64,000 bases of DNA from an uncultured Porphyromonadaceae bacterium (lineage in GTDB: Bacteria; Bacteroidota; Bacteroidia; Bacteroidales; Muribaculaceae). The translations under genes were made by a program, and so were the position numbers. Below are positions 33,552-39,708 of this stretch, piece after piece; the stretch's first letter is position 1, and every line of letters begins with the position of its first letter. Under the pieces are notes generated by a model. It was not told the origin of the DNA. It saw only the letters and a program-made list of their open reading frames with translations, and did no database searches. The stretch covers positions 1 through 64,000 of the forward strand of contig CAMWIM010000002.1 of the NCBI GenBank assembly GCA_947174335.1. Reading direction: 5' to 3'.

Positions 33552-34826
33552 ATGACCTACGACGAAGCTGTAAAATTCCTATATGACGCCACACCCCAAT
33601 TCCAGCAGATTGGGGCGGCTGCCTATAAACCGGGGCTCGACTCAACTCATACGCTTGACCTGGCATTTGGTCATCCCCACCGTAAATTTCGTGCAATCCA
33701 TGTTGCCGGAACTAACGGCAAAGGATCTACAGCCCACACCATAGCGGCTATTCTTCAAAGTCAGGGATATAAAATCGGACTTTACACGTCGCCCCATCTT
33801 GTCGATTTCAGAGAACGAATCAGAGTGAACGGTCAAAAGATTGAAAAACAAGCCGTTGTCGATTTCATCAAACGCTACCAGTCAATAGAAAACATGCCAT
33901 ATGTCTCATTTTTTGAACTGACAACAATCATGGCGTTTGACTATTTCGCCTCGCAAAGCGTTGATTTTGCAGTGATTGAGGTCGGACTTGGCGGACGACT
34001 TGACAGTACAAACATCATCTCACCAATTCTATCGGTTATAACAAACATATCAAAAGACCATGTCGCCCAACTTGGTGATTCTATCGCCGGAATTGCAGCT
34101 GAAAAAGCCGGAATTATAAAACCCGGAATACCGGTTGTGATAGGCGAATCAAATGATATAACCCGTCCGGTGTTTCTCTCGGTTGCAGCCCGAAATGAAT
34201 CTCCTATATTTTTTGCGCCGCCACTCTACGGCTATCACGTTGATAATAACGGCGATATGATTTATCCCGAAACTTCGGTAGGGGAGATCACATCTGTTTT
34301 ATCGGGTGATTGTCAGCCTAAAAATGCCGCAACTATCTTAACCGCAGTTAATTGCCTACGCACTTTAGGAATTAAAATCTCAAATGAGGCGATAAAAAGC
34401 GGATTCCTGAAGGTTTGCGAGTTGACCGGATTGATGGGGCGTTGGATGAAACTGTCATCTAATCCCACGGTTATTTGTGATACAGGGCACAATGTCGGTG
34501 GCTGGGAATACCTGTCAAAACGACTCGCGTCGTTTGGCGACAAGCTGAAAATGGTAATCGGTTTTGTCAACGACAAGGATATCAGATCGATAATGCAGAT
34601 GATGCCAACCGACGCCGAATACTATTTCACTCGTGCCTCAATTCCTCGCGCCCTTGATGAGAAAGAAGTAAAGCGCGTTGCCGCGGAATATGGCTTAAAA
34701 GGGGAGTGCTACGGATCTGTAAAAGAAGCTTATACAGCAGCAAAAGCTACAGCATTGAGCGATGACACAATATTTGTTGGCGGAAGCACTTTTGTAGTTG
34801 CCGACCTGCTATCGTTCAACTCATAA
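33552..34826 (+). CDS. folC: Bifunctional folylpolyglutamate/dihydrofolate synthase
   Basis: 424 residues. The Mur-ligase-like ATP site is VAGTNGKGST near residue 57, with YTSPHLVDFRERIRVNG and VEVGLGGRLDSTN (substrate and metal loop), KDHVAQLG and a C-terminal Rossmann-like part with CDTGHNVGG. FolC joins glutamate to dihydropteroate and extends folate with polyglutamate. It follows the chromate genes after 3 bp, so expression may be shared. Confidence 0.96.
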   Translation: MTYDEAVKFLYDATPQFQQIGAAAYKPGLDSTHTLDLAFGHPHRKFRAIHVAGTNGKGSTAHTIAAILQSQGYKIGLYTSPHLVDFRERIRVNGQKIEKQAVVDFIKRYQSIENMPYVSFFELTTIMAFDYFASQSVDFAVIEVGLGGRLDSTNIISPILSVITNISKDHVAQLGDSIAGIAAEKAGIIKPGIPVVIGESNDITRPVFLSVAARNESPIFFAPPLYGYHVDNNGDMIYPETSVGEITSVLSGDCQPKNAATILTAVNCLRTLGIKISNEAIKSGFLKVCELTGLMGRWMKLSSNPTVICDTGHNVGGWEYLSKRLASFGDKLKMVIGFVNDKDIRSIMQMMPTDAEYYFTRASIPRALDEKEVKRVAAEYGLKGECYGSVKEAYTAAKATALSDDTIFVGGSTFVVADLLSFNS

Positions 34827-34831
34827 CATAT

Positions 34832-34862
34832 TTTGTTAACTCAAAAATAATTAGTAATTTTG
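34832..34862 (+). promoter_or_regulatory. Promoter for the candidate structured RNA
   Basis: TTTG at 34832-34835 and TAATTTTG at 34855-34862, 19 bp apart, match the Bacteroidota promoter consensus fully. It lies just after folC and is followed within about 6 nt by the first base pair of the RNA fold. Confidence 0.8.
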
Positions 34863-34867
34863 CATAA

Positions 34868-35203
34868 GAGCTCACGCTGGAGCCGTCATTTTTAACATTA
34901 AGAGACGGAGAATGGGTGGGTTTTATTTAGCTATAGCGCCTATTGGCGTCTTGGCACGACATAAAATAAAAGAAGCGTTATTGGCGCTTGGTTTCTGACT
35001 TCATGAAACTTCGAACACTTCAAAACATCAGGAAACCTTGCAATGATGATGCTCATGGGTATGTAATATCTGTATGTTCCGTGACGGAATATGCTGTGTA
35101 TATTCATACGGCGTGAGGTCTCGTTGCTCGTTTCGATGTTTGGGCAGTTCGAAGGCCTCATGAAGTGTAACGAGCAACAGTATGGCTCTCACGCTCTTTT
35201 TTT
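34868..35203 (+). ncRNA. Candidate structured non-coding RNA of about 330 nt with a kissing-loop fold
   Basis: No convincing ORF. Directly seen: ends pair as GAGC/GCTC (34868-34871 with 35193-35196) and GAGCC/GGCTC (34880-34884 with 35184-35188). Internal helices: CCGTC/GACGG (34883-34887 with 34904-34908, sharing two bases with the previous helix), TTTTATTT/AAATAAAA (34921-34928 with 34964-34971) capped by CGCC/GGCG, AAGCG/CGCTT (34973-34977 with 34985-34989), GGTTTCTGA with 35028-35037, a long hairpin 35059-35109 tipped by TTCCG/CGGAA, and GTTGCTCGTT/AACGAGCAAC (35123-35132 with 35169-35178). Loop bases 34999-35016 and 35147-35165 are complementary over 8+8 bp, a kissing loop. A T-run ends it. 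Not recognised as RNase P, tmRNA, SRP or 6S RNA. It could instead be a long leader of the next gene. Confidence 0.72.
35184..35203 (+). terminator. Terminator-like 3' end of the structured RNA
   Basis: The 3' strand of the closing helix (GGCTC, GCTC) runs directly into seven T residues at 35197-35203. The stem partner is distant (34868-34884), so termination may rely on the complete fold or on a local alternative hairpin. Confidence 0.5.
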
Positions 35204-35261
35204 CTAAATTAAAAACCAATCTAATGCTGATGTTGTGAGCCCTGAAGCAAAGTTAAATATT

Positions 35262-36896
35262 ATGAAACATTTTAAATTTTCACTAAAGCTTTTAATTGCT
35301 TTAATCGGGCTTTACACTACAACAGCCTGTTCTGACAAAAATGATGGACCGGACATTCCCGATATCAATTACAACAAATTGAAAATCGGACGCATGGACC
35401 TATCAGGTGCTGTGTCGGTCGGACTCAAAAACGAAGACAATTCGCGTGCTATCAATGGCGAATACCTCTCTGCCGGGATGTATAAGATTGATACCGATGG
35501 CAAAATCTATGCCGTAGCGGTTTATTTCACTACCGATACGCTCGGCAATCGATTGGATCATGAAGAACGACTTCGTATTGTTCCAAAAAATCTTGAAAAC
35601 ATCTCAAAAGACTATCTTTTGGTCATTGATTGCTCATATTACGACCGCGAGGGCGACAAAGTCTCTGATAAATGGGAATTTAATGAAGAAACCGAAGAGG
35701 GTCGTTGGATTAAACAAGATGTGCCGTATAAACACCTTCTTGTTAGAAAATCTGACGGTAAAATTTGGTGCGTTGATAACATTAAAGACAACATTGTCAA
35801 GTATTCAAGACTAAACGGTCAATTTATCGAATCAAACCGAGGTGATTTATATTTCGTTAATGCCGATTCTGATGCGGCTTTCAAATTCAACTTGTCATCT
35901 GATGAAGCCTCTTTTGAGCAGATTACCACCGGTGATGGAACGATTTATGATGGTGATTACTTCGTCACCGACAACGGAATAATAGGGCAAGCGAATAATG
36001 AATCTATATATTTTGGTTGGCCCCATTCAGGTTTCACAAATATTAATGGCGTACGGGATATAATGGATGCAGATCTCAAAGAGGAAATTCCAATTGAAGG
36101 CCTTGAATTGGGTAAGTACAAGGAATTCAAATGGAGCAAGTATACAAAGAGATGTCAAACTTTTGTATTTGAGAATAATATTTACATACTTGCGTTGCAA
36201 AGTTACAATTTATTTTGTAAAAACAAATACAATAATTGGGATTTTAAAACTTACGATGCTTCTGAAAGGGAAACAATAGAAAAAATCGTCTTTGAAAATG
36301 AAGCGCTAAGACCTGTAATATACAAAATAACCCCCGGAAATAATCCCGGAGAATACTCCTTTACAAACCTTACAAATCTTGAAGTTAATAAAGATTTCGA
36401 AACTGTTCAGGTTGATTATTATTCCAGAATATATACATTTGGATATAAAGGTTCTTATCATTTTATTTCTGATGATAAAATTTATCTACTACTAAGAGAA
36501 TCTTATGCTAATTTAACTTCTTATTATTCTTGGCTTACTCGATATAATTTCAAAGACAATAAATGGCAAGTGATTAAAAAATTAGAATTTGATTTAAATT
36601 ATTATAACATTGAGTATCAAGATAAGCTTTGGTTTTTCGATAAAAAAAATAATAAAATAAATCCCGGTATCTATTGGTTAGACCTTAATGCCGAAGATTC
36701 CGGCTTCATCAAATTTAACACACTCCCCGACTTCGTTAAGTACAAGGAATATGAAAACGGCGTCATAACATACTCAGGAGTGGATCCCTCTACAAGCAAT
36801 ACAGTAAATATCTATATTGATATCACTACCGGTGAAGCCGTTAATGAAGTAAATACTCCCGAAATGATTTTCAATACATTAATTCCATTAAACTAA
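35262..36896 (+). CDS. Unknown lipoprotein, 544 residues
   Basis: I start at the ATG at 35262; the open frame also allows a GTG at 35235. The N-terminus is a lipoprotein signal ending in TTAC (lipobox Cys near residue 24). The mature part is Asp/Lys/Tyr-rich with many repeated beta-strand-like stretches (for example KIYAVAVYF, KLWFFDKKN, GIYWLDLN), which would suit a beta-propeller-like surface protein. No enzyme motif recognised. The middle, around 36100-36700, is clearly more AT-rich than neighbouring genes, a sign of possible horizontal origin. It follows the structured RNA by 58 bp with no clear promoter between. Confidence 0.7.
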   Translation: MKHFKFSLKLLIALIGLYTTTACSDKNDGPDIPDINYNKLKIGRMDLSGAVSVGLKNEDNSRAINGEYLSAGMYKIDTDGKIYAVAVYFTTDTLGNRLDHEERLRIVPKNLENISKDYLLVIDCSYYDREGDKVSDKWEFNEETEEGRWIKQDVPYKHLLVRKSDGKIWCVDNIKDNIVKYSRLNGQFIESNRGDLYFVNADSDAAFKFNLSSDEASFEQITTGDGTIYDGDYFVTDNGIIGQANNESIYFGWPHSGFTNINGVRDIMDADLKEEIPIEGLELGKYKEFKWSKYTKRCQTFVFENNIYILALQSYNLFCKNKYNNWDFKTYDASERETIEKIVFENEALRPVIYKITPGNNPGEYSFTNLTNLEVNKDFETVQVDYYSRIYTFGYKGSYHFISDDKIYLLLRESYANLTSYYSWLTRYNFKDNKWQVIKKLEFDLNYYNIEYQDKLWFFDKKNNKINPGIYWLDLNAEDSGFIKFNTLPDFVKYKEYENGVITYSGVDPSTSNTVNIYIDITTGEAVNEVNTPEMIFNTLIPLN

Positions 36897-36902
36897 ATAA
36901 CA

Positions 36903-37664
36903 ATGAAGTTTTTAAAAACAAAAAAGAACTACACTCATCAGGAAAATGATCAAATTCTCAAAGAATGGGAAAAACTCTCAATTAAGAAAGGCGCCGGCAA
37001 GATTGAAACAGACGGTGTTGCATATAAAGGTGGAATGAATCCCAAAATTGCAGAACGATTAGAAGGTAACGAAGTAACTATTTGGAACAATTCCGACAAG
37101 AGAATACTCTTTGTCGCGAAAGAACTCAATGATCCAAACAATTCCTACGATTCTCGTGTGGTTGTAAGACATGACCCTGATAAGGGCATTTACCTTACCA
37201 ACAAATTTCTCAAGGCAATGCTTTTTATTACTTCGGGATTGCTCAACTCAACAGAAAAGCACGCTGCCGAGTTTAATCGCTATGAATCAATGGAAAAACT
37301 CATGGCTGACTGGGACGAAGCAGCAGTAGCAAAAATCAATGTCAAGAAACAGCCCGGCGGCTCAACATCGAGTTTTGCCGAGATCTCAAAAGCAATGGAA
37401 GACTACAAGGAGTTTCTTGTTAGACAGGTAAAACTTCTCAACGCCAACATCATTGTTTGTTGCGACGGCCGTGGCGTGATATTGAACGCAATCAAAGATT
37501 GGGTCTATCCCAATGCCAAGCAGGTAAATGACTACGTCTGGTATGACAAAGACTCTGAAACGTTGTTGATAAACAGCTATCATCTGAGTGCCCGCAAGTC
37601 ATATCAAAGTCTCTATGATCGAGTGATTTCAAGCTATGTTGATGCCCTCGCTAAACTGAAATAA
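36903..37664 (+). CDS. Hypothetical protein, possible uracil-DNA-glycosylase fold
   Basis: 253 residues, soluble. ILFVAKELNDPNNSYD near residue 68, NIIVCCDGRG near 180 and LLINSYHLSARKSYQSLYD near 220 resemble in order the motif A, central strand and motif B positions of UDG-superfamily proteins, where a motif-B His or Ser is expected. The match is by eye and weak; the classical GQDPYH motif is absent. Function is therefore not assigned. It starts 6 bp after the lipoprotein stop, so the two are probably co-transcribed. Confidence 0.6.
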   Translation: MKFLKTKKNYTHQENDQILKEWEKLSIKKGAGKIETDGVAYKGGMNPKIAERLEGNEVTIWNNSDKRILFVAKELNDPNNSYDSRVVVRHDPDKGIYLTNKFLKAMLFITSGLLNSTEKHAAEFNRYESMEKLMADWDEAAVAKINVKKQPGGSTSSFAEISKAMEDYKEFLVRQVKLLNANIIVCCDGRGVILNAIKDWVYPNAKQVNDYVWYDKDSETLLINSYHLSARKSYQSLYDRVISSYVDALAKLK

Positions 37665-37696
37665 AGTTTTAAAAATTTCATAATATCATATATCCT

Positions 37697-37731
37697 ATAA
37701 GGACTGTTTCTGTAAAAGAAGCAGTCCTTAT
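37697..37731 (+). terminator. Terminator after the possible UDG-fold gene
   Basis: ATAAGGACTG/CAGTCCTTAT (37697-37706 with 37722-37731), a 10-bp perfect stem with partial pairing in the loop, followed by a T-rich ATTTTATT run. It lies 32 bp after the stop. Confidence 0.85.
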
Positions 37732-37794
37732 CATTTTATTAATACATCGTCAACTCCGTTGACTCCTCGTTCTACTGTTCCCCTGTCAAAAATC

Positions 37795-37840
37795 GGACGC
37801 AAAGACCTTGCGTCCCTACAAGGCGCTGTTAATCAGTCGG
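37795..37840. repeat. Palindromic intergenic repeat, copy 1
   Basis: A stem GGACGCAA/TTGCGTCC with loop AGACC (37795-37815) followed by a conserved tail through 37840 (CCTACAA, then AATCAGTCGG). The same 46-nt unit recurs at 38123. REP/BIME-like elements have this appearance. Confidence 0.8.
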
Positions 37841-38036
37841 ATGAACAGGATATCTTAATTATTGGTCGAAGACCATATACTCTTTTTAACCCTGCCATCG
37901 AGCCGGTAGGCTCGTTGGTAGGGTGGATTAGCAACCTCTCACTCATACATCTTCGACAGATGATGAACTTACAGGCGCACGAGCCGGACCAACATGGCGA
38001 AGGTTTGTCCCTGCAAATCAACGTATTATATTTTCT

Positions 38037-38074
38037 ATTCCGAATTTACTGCAAATTTACAGTATTTTCGGAAT
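38037..38074. repeat. Long inverted repeat (two-part hairpin)
   Basis: ATTCCGAA/TTCGGAAT (38037-38044 with 38067-38074) encloses TACTG/CAGTA (38047-38051 with 38060-38064), separated by a TT/TT mismatch pair and an 8-nt loop. It lies between the repeat copies and has no adjacent gene end, so it is not obviously a terminator. Confidence 0.7.
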
Positions 38075-38122
38075 AGGAGGTCTTTCGCACTGATAGACAA
38101 GCGTTTCTCATATCAAAATATT

Positions 38123-38168
38123 GGACGCAAAGACCTTGCGTCCCTACAAAACGCTGCTAATCAATCGG
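38123..38168. repeat. Palindromic intergenic repeat, copy 2
   Basis: Same unit as 37795-37840 with about four substitutions; the stem-loop GGACGCAA-AGACC-TTGCGTCC is identical. Confidence 0.8.
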
Positions 38169-38207
38169 CTGCACCAGGGTACAGCCCTACAAACATGGTG
38201 ATATGAC

Positions 38208-38267: not shown

Positions 38268-39080
38268 TTAACCGAATTGTTTGCGGTGGAAGATGAAGTC
38301 GCGGCCGAGATATTTTTCTCTAACGACGGGATTTTCAGCCAATTCTTCTGATGTTCCCTGAAAAAGGATTTTACCTTCAAACAAAAGATAGGCGCGGTCG
38401 GTGATGTTAAGCGTTTCGTGAGCGTTGTGGTCGGTAATCAAAATACCGATGTTCTTCTCTTTCAGCTTGTAAACGACCTCCTGGATGTCTTCGACAGCGA
38501 TAGGGTCAACGCCGGCAAACGGTTCGTCAAGCATGATGAACTTAGGACTAATTGCCAGACAGCGGGCGATTTCGGTGCGTCGGCGTTCGCCACCCGAGAG
38601 ACGGTCACCGAGGTTCTTTCTAACCTTTTCAAGTCGGAATTCAGCGATTAGGCTTTCAAGTTTCTCTTTTTGTTGTTCATCGGTTAAGTTTGTCATTTGA
38701 AGAACAGAACGGATGTTGTCTTCAACGCTCATTTTGCGGAAAACCGAAGCTTCCTGAGCAAGATAACCGATGCCGTTTTGAGCACGTTTATAGACAGGAT
38801 ATTTGGTGATGTTCAAGTCGTTAAGATAGATTTCGCCTTCGTTCGGTGTAATCAATCCTACGGTCATATAAAAAGTAGTGGTTTTACCGGCACCGTTAGG
38901 TCCGAGCAATCCGACAATTTCACCCTGAGTCACATTGATTGAAACGTGGTTAACGACCGTACGTTTACCATATTTTTTCACCAGATTATCGGTGCGCAAT
39001 ATGCCTTTTGTTTCTGATGAAGTAACATCGGGCGTTGCGGTTGATTCGGGAATTATGATTTCTTCTTCAACGATTTCCAT
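38268..39080 (-). CDS. lptB: LPS export ABC transporter ATP-binding protein
   Basis: I use the ATG at 39080 (270 residues) directly after the udk stop; a TTG further up would overlap udk. The N-terminal 30 residues are an acidic extension absent from enterobacterial LptB. ATPase parts: Walker [18 protein letters not shown]-loop [12 protein letters not shown], signature [13 protein letters not shown] and Walker [12 protein letters not shown]. The [12 protein letters not shown] segment is typical of LptB. It powers LPS extraction from the inner membrane. Confidence 0.94.
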
Positions 39081-39084
39081 AACT

Positions 39085-39708
39085 TCAGATTTTTTTTGCT
39101 TTAGCCAAACGACCGTCAATATAGTCAGTTAACAATCCGATAGCGACAGTATTGGTTCCGCCTTGGGGAATAATAAGGTCGGCAAAGCGTTTACAGGGAT
39201 TGATATATTGCATGTGCATCGGTTTCAAGACGTTTTGATAACGGTCGATAACCATCTGGGGAGTGCGACCTCGCTCGATGCAGTCGCGTGCAATAACTCT
39301 GATCAGACGCTCGTCGTCGTCGGCATCAACATAACATTTAACATCCATCATTTCTCTCAAAATAGACTCCGTCAACACGAGGATGCCCTCGACGATGACA
39401 ACGTCAGTAGGTTTGACCGTAACGGTTGCGTCCTGACGGGTACATGTGAGATAGGAATAGGTCGGCATCTGGATTGTCTCACCGTTTTTCAAACGTTTGA
39501 GATGATCAACAAGAAGAGTCCATTCGATTGCCGTCGGTTCGTCAAAATTAACTTTCTGACGATCTTCAAGAGGCATGTAACTCAAATCCTTATAATAAGA
39601 ATCTTGAGGGATAACAGCAACTTCACCGGCAGGGAGACTGTCAATGATTTTACGAACTACGGTTGTTTTACCTGAACCGGTACCTCCGGCAATTCCTATA
39701 ATAAGCAT
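39085..39708 (-). CDS. udk: Uridine kinase
   Basis: 207 residues. P-loop [17 protein letters not shown] at the start, then [28 protein letters not shown] and RDCIERGRT, all characteristic of Udk. It phosphorylates uridine and cytidine in pyrimidine salvage. lptB begins 4 bp past its stop, so the two share a transcript. Confidence 0.96.

Follow-up and report, generated by a model that had tools for sequence, protein, structure and literature searches.

Between folC, which ends at position 34826, and the start codon of a lipoprotein gene, the window (the entire 64,000-nt stretch of DNA analyzed) contains a promoter and a T-run separated by about 330 nt of structured sequence (Table 1). This structured sequence belongs to a new family of RNA whose fold is unusual and whose kind of location is already known. 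Judging from the sequences of its many copies, it is probably a large cis-acting leader (attenuator) of the Bacteroidales gene downstream and not a free-standing RNA, and its likeliest role is that of an on/off switch at the start of the messages of its downstream genes. A first-pass annotation of this DNA had noted the promoter, some 330 nt without a credible open reading frame (ORF), a seven-T run, and two hairpins, all of which are present as described, and the element (positions 34868 to 35203) folds far better than shuffled sequences (folding energy z-score, -8.55).

Table 1. Features of the RNA and its surroundings in the window. For a1, a2, and a3, paired fractions and double-changed cells were counted over 187 nonredundant copies.
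Feature	Position	Strand	Basis or remark
Bacteroidota-type promoter, TTTG-N19-TAATTTTG	34832..34862 (TTTG 34832-34835; TAATTTTG 34855-34862)	+	sequence
5' domain	34868..34970	+	alignments; covariation weaker than in core
P1 hairpin	34974..34988 (34974-34978/34984-34988)	+	98% of cells paired
Hairpin A	34990..35037; stem 34990-34997/35029-35037	+	stem 94-96% paired
Hairpin A upper stem	35005-35007/35019-35021	+	91-92% paired, double changes; apical loop carries a2
Kissing strand a1	34998..35006, partner 35158-35166, 9 bp	+	98.7% paired, 542 double-changed cells
Kissing strand a2 (apical loop)	35009..35015, partner 35148-35154, 7 bp	+	98.8% paired, 319 double-changed cells
Kissing strand a3	35023..35029, partner 35135-35141	+	91.8% paired, 419 double-changed cells
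GTATG/CATAC stem	35059..35109 (35059-35063/35105-35109)	+	sequence and alignment; 73% paired as aligned
Variable hairpin carried by GTATG/CATAC stem	35077-35081/35085-35089	+	
S1, terminator lower stem	35111..35194; GCGTGAG 35111-35117/CTCACGC 35188-35194	+	98.4% of cells paired
Hairpin B inside terminator	35123..35178; stem 35123-35132/35169-35178	+	99.5% paired; holds a3', a2', a1'
Hairpin B upper stem	GGGC 35142-35145/GCCU 35155-35158	+	99.2% paired, nearly invariant
S2, inner end of terminator 3' arm	GGCTC 35184..35188; pairs with 35237-35241	+	downstream complement kept in variants
T-run, intrinsic-terminator-like	35197..35203, seven T	+	
Downstream hairpin	35225..35249 (35225-35228/35246-35249)	+	loop GAGCC 35237-35241 pairs with S2
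Lipoprotein gene after the RNA	35262..36896	+	ORF; Pfam gives weak, sub-cutoff Kelch-like matches only

The source genome (G000), a Bacteroidales MAG of 2.4 Mb in 102 contigs, contains eight copies detectable by BLAST and 14 places matched by R1, a covariance model built on the 3' module with the S1 terminator stem as its core; the R1 matches occupy 18 rows, four of which are mirror images of palindromic copies, and reverse-strand matches were rejected as extra copies because they mirror the palindromic hairpin. Homologues in relatives, on which the first-pass annotation had made its proposal depend, were found by BLAST (36 of 99 relatives), by R1 (57 of 295 Bacteroidales genomes), and by a pattern scan of named genomes, which yielded Muribaculaceae and related Bacteroidales, both MAGs and isolates. 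Three of the 392 genomes in a phylum-wide sample matched R1: two are Bacteroidales, one of these being the window's own, and the third (G678) gave a single weak hit (E = 5.9e-4) of a kind that chance could give. Altogether, 196 distinct copies from Bacteroidales, mostly Muribaculaceae, were analyzed. The number of copies in one gut Bacteroidales genome reaches about a dozen, each about 300 to 330 nt long as far as the terminator stem. The canonical family consensus is GCGTTTACT...AACGGTAGATGCC...GCGTGAGGC...TTGCTCGTTC...CTCACGC, with a 5' domain of the form GCAGACCGCAT..GCCCGGTCA..GGGC, from which the window copy departs as a member of a divergent subfamily. Searches of plasmid and phage collections gave no copies, and one copy was found on a viral contig in IMG/VR (L241:5897). 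Behind it lies an ORF (L241:6290-7153) resembling window positions 36903-37664, the gene that follows the lipoprotein gene and that is uracil-DNA-glycosylase-like by eye with no Pfam hit. The viral contig, 10.8 kb in length, carries terminase-like and BspA-like genes and is perhaps a prophage edge.

The first-pass annotation recognized no known RNA family, and our searches agree. The Rfam 15 covariance models gave no match in the window at the gathering cutoff, only chance-level hits with the element alone at E values up to 10, and none with seven canonical copies at E ≤ 0.1; among six more loci, the only match was to a tRNA. No known riboswitch model matches, and the RNA has a conserved unpaired core. 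No published description was found in the open-access literature searched. A conserved reading frame over the region, which the annotation had set against its own reading, is absent: each of the six frames is open across the core in only 3 to 11 of 190 copies, and lengths are spread over all three residues modulo 3. The core does not behave as a protein-coding gene.

The center of the fold is a pair of hairpins, A and B, joined by three helices (9, 7, and 8 bp) in which 92 to 99% of cells are paired across the 187 nonredundant copies. Strands a2 and a2' lie in the apical loops above both upper stems; the internal loops beneath are occupied by a1/a1' and a3/a3'. The annotation had proposed a loop-loop interaction of 8 plus 8 bp; the pairing itself is upheld by covariation, but its size is not, since there are three helices (a3 measures 7 bp in the window copy and 8 bp in most copies), and both the third helix and the location of a2 in the apical loop had been overlooked. 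When 61 copies were aligned, 97.7% of the cells in a 47-pair structure comprising stem A, stem B, P1, S1, and the kissing helices were paired, with 431 double-sided changes compared with 124 ± 11 in shuffles and 36 to 76 in slid controls, bearing out the earlier view that such complementarity is hard to get by chance. In the same 61 copies, both partners vary in 22 of the 24 kissing pairs. The alignments were made by sequence and the pairs counted afterwards; the copies are related, so these counts are not independent events, a caveat tempered by the slid controls, which retain the relatedness yet stay low. In an unbiased analysis of mutual information over the 187 copies, the kissing helices rank first, with paired fractions of 0.88 to 1.00. 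The covariation sought by the annotation is thus present in the stems as well as in the loop partners, and it extends to upper stem A and to a pseudoknot in which, in canonical copies, the P1 loop pairs with a downstream GGTA (97% paired, with CG/UA exchange).

Each copy has a private pairing code. The three helices score 0.99, 0.98, and 0.89 when strands of the same copy are paired, compared with 0.63, 0.74, and 0.60 between copies of one genome, and none of these cross pairs reaches 0.95 over a1 plus a3. The copies within a genome differ in helix sequence, and the pairing is therefore intramolecular. As read from the alignment, the linkers joining stem A, stem B, a1, and a3 are 0 to 1 nt long, as in a four-way junction, and such near-zero linkers seem to fit a junction better than a two-state model with mutually exclusive loop-loop duplex and stems. 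Docked in this way, hairpins A and B would resemble the double-crossover of designed RNA nanostructures, and the RNA provides an instance from nature of a fold better known from designed molecules. An RNA of about 300 nt with three kissing helices and further pseudoknots is present in many copies in a major group of gut bacteria and has no Rfam entry.

Hairpin B sits inside what looks like an intrinsic terminator. At least seven T residues fall within the first 9 nt past S1 in 163 of 196 copies, a signature suggesting termination ahead of the gene. Two copies with a poor T-tail, L165 and L090, have a second hairpin and T-run a few tens of nucleotides further on, as though these had taken the terminator's place. 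Pairing continues beyond this point. The inner 3' arm of the terminator (S2; GGCTC in most copies) has a complement 25 to 45 nt past S1, and in the 78 copies in which the arm has another sequence, 59% match at a score of at least 6, compared with 19% when downstream sequences are swapped (for example, TGGTTCTC/GAGAACCG in L046 and GAATTCC/GGAATTC in L117). The complement is presented as a hairpin loop, with flanking stems scoring at least 5 in 52% of cases versus 14% at control positions. A covarying partner past the T-run implies that the conserved RNA includes sequence present only in read-through transcripts. The promoter-to-terminator extent given in the annotation therefore holds for the promoter and the T-run, but not for an RNA end at the T-run, and the pairing beyond it had been missed.

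The RNA and the gene behind it lie at a constrained spacing. At the 5' end of the RNA, the TAnnTTTG box lies at the corresponding distance in 139 of 182 copies, accompanied in 116 by a -33-like box, and about a quarter of copies have no clear promoter box at the expected place. The first ATG-initiated ORF of at least 80 amino acids starts 50 to 70 nt past S1 in 105 of 178 copies and outside this range in the other 73; the gap from S1 to the start codon has a median of 60 nt (interquartile range, 56 to 68), and the peak is lacking for the divergent upstream ORFs that served as control, of which 5 of 172 fall in those bins. Within the gap, TAnnTTTG was found in 1 of 158 copies and never with a -33 box. 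Promoter, RNA, and gene are thus co-oriented at constrained spacing, with no complete promoter between RNA and gene. The annotation, which had not remarked on the fixed distance, allowed that the RNA might act alone or as a leader; of these, a cis-acting leader is the best reading of the fixed start-codon distance, the gap without a promoter, and the structure past the T-run together, and action alone is unlikely. Weighing against the leader reading are the 73 copies with the first ORF outside the usual range, the copies without a clear promoter box, and downstream genes with no obvious pathway in common. Matches to the promoter only, in G005, G010, and G024, were rejected as RNA copies, being similar strong promoters before other genes. 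In relatives, a near-identical strong promoter, AAAAATAATTAGTAAnTTTGCA, precedes two probable sugar-phosphate gene copies and a tRNA (L252, L253, and L254).

The same observations bear on other explanations. A free-standing, multicopy trans-acting RNA (an sRNA or RNP scaffold) whose 3' end is the T-run, with the genes as mere neighbors, would account for the RNA's own promoter, good T-tail, large conserved core, and many paralogues per genome. It is nevertheless unlikely, given the covarying S2 partner past the T-run, the start codon at a fixed distance across a gap without a promoter, and a linkage of RNA and gene that is kept between genera: orthologous downstream genes in different genera have the RNA in front of them, with different flanks. 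A self-processing ribozyme, for which the downstream hairpin would serve as a substrate docked by loop pairing and which would release an mRNA with a new 5' end by cutting near the T-run, would suit the large invariant core with several pseudoknots and the recognition of a hairpin loop through covarying pairing, but we consider it very unlikely, as no invariant cleavage-site motif was seen from S1 to the hairpin, the T-tail is terminator-like, and no Rfam ribozyme matches.

Comparison of the copies shows that the RNA has its own promoter, that hairpins A and B dock lengthwise through the apical loop-loop helix a2 and the internal-loop helices a1 and a3, and that hairpin B forms the upper part of the intrinsic terminator. 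The action of a cis-acting leader is inferred from this fold. The downstream gene, apparently without a promoter of its own, would be expressed only if RNA polymerase passes the terminator, and the upstream domain, which the kissing helices connect with the terminator hairpin, would set the frequency of termination. In read-through transcripts, S1 and S2 could stack as a pseudoknot by the start codon and may affect translation too; part of S2 falls inside the terminator arm and its partner is transcribed only past the T-run, so S2 cannot act in the decision to terminate. Candidates for shifting the balance are a small molecule, a protein, or transcription speed, and the presence of many leaders before unrelated accessory genes in one genome suggests a common signal. 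More tentatively, the RNA may represent a new class of gene-control RNA whose terminator hairpin is physically part of the sensor, with A and B zipped by the kissing helices, the pseudoknot bridging terminator and start codon, and one global signal switching surface and defense genes. The covariation provides exact compensatory mutants.

The folC locus is the only place where real exchange or absence was seen. The folC-proximal promoter is identical in G000 and its congeners G004 and G007, followed in G004 (C125) by an almost identical RNA and a related lipoprotein and in G007 (C5) by a canonical RNA and a different gene; in G006 (C4) RNA and gene are absent, and folC adjoins the ABC ATPase gene found at window positions 38268-39119. 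Exchange and absence among relatives indicate that the RNA together with its gene acts as one accessory unit. Window positions 34832 to 38200, flanked by folC and the ABC ATPase gene, form a variable island. In loci with homologous downstream genes, homology lost at the RNA 5' end and past the gene was considered as a sign of cassette mobility and rejected, since diverged intergenic DNA of different genera looks alike in the group inspected. A DNA-level element (a recombination site or mobile cassette end carrying accessory genes) would fit the accessory genes downstream and the folC congeners with a common promoter followed by different RNA and gene or nothing, but it is the least probable of these explanations, for G-U pairs, expected of RNA and not of folded DNA, are common in stem A and P1, the promoter, T-tail, and gene spacing are strand specific, plasmid and phage records gave no hits, and no 3' boundary is common to the compared group. 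An integron attC or other folded-DNA recombination site, with no G-T pairs and a position downstream of cassette genes, does not fit those many G-U pairs or the position upstream of genes.

Terminating riboswitches and leader attenuators likewise consist of a 5' structured domain, an intrinsic terminator, and a controlled gene, and one genome can carry many of them ahead of different genes; this RNA differs in being much larger, in lacking an Rfam match, in having a terminator hairpin that three variable helices dock to the upstream domain, and in pairing past the T-run. FopS of Bacteroides thetaiotaomicron is reportedly a paralogous sRNA family and so resembles this RNA in forming paralogues within one Bacteroidales genome. 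It is reported to act in polysaccharide-utilization control via the protein RbpB (PMC11697453). GOLLD, ROOL, and OLE (PMC12286853) are also large bacterial RNAs with elaborate folds and functions unknown or partly known, whereas this RNA has no Rfam match, kisses intramolecularly with a private code, and is tied to a downstream start codon. The Bacteroidales-1, Bacteroides-1, and Bacteroid-trp motifs (PMC2864571) are structured and come from the same bacterial order or phylum, but they are in Rfam and do not match this RNA at the thresholds used.

The proteins encoded downstream include BspA-type LRR proteins, DUF4988, DUF4595, and BACON lipoproteins, and caspase-like, SNF2/DrmD-like, and type III methyltransferase proteins; a paralogue of the window's lipoprotein also lies behind an RNA copy (G000:C11). 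By a simple, rough heuristic, 59% have signal-peptide-like (secreted-type) N termini, compared with 26% of control ORFs, and no obvious common pathway was seen among the genes examined. As a leader, the RNA would define a regulon in Muribaculaceae and their kin made up of secreted, surface, and defense genes. Defense-like downstream genes (SNF2/DrmD-like, PLD-helicase, and type III methyltransferase, resembling restriction or DISARM systems) occur, for example, at L125:3-1427 (-) and L089:513-1973 (+), surface proteins being commoner.
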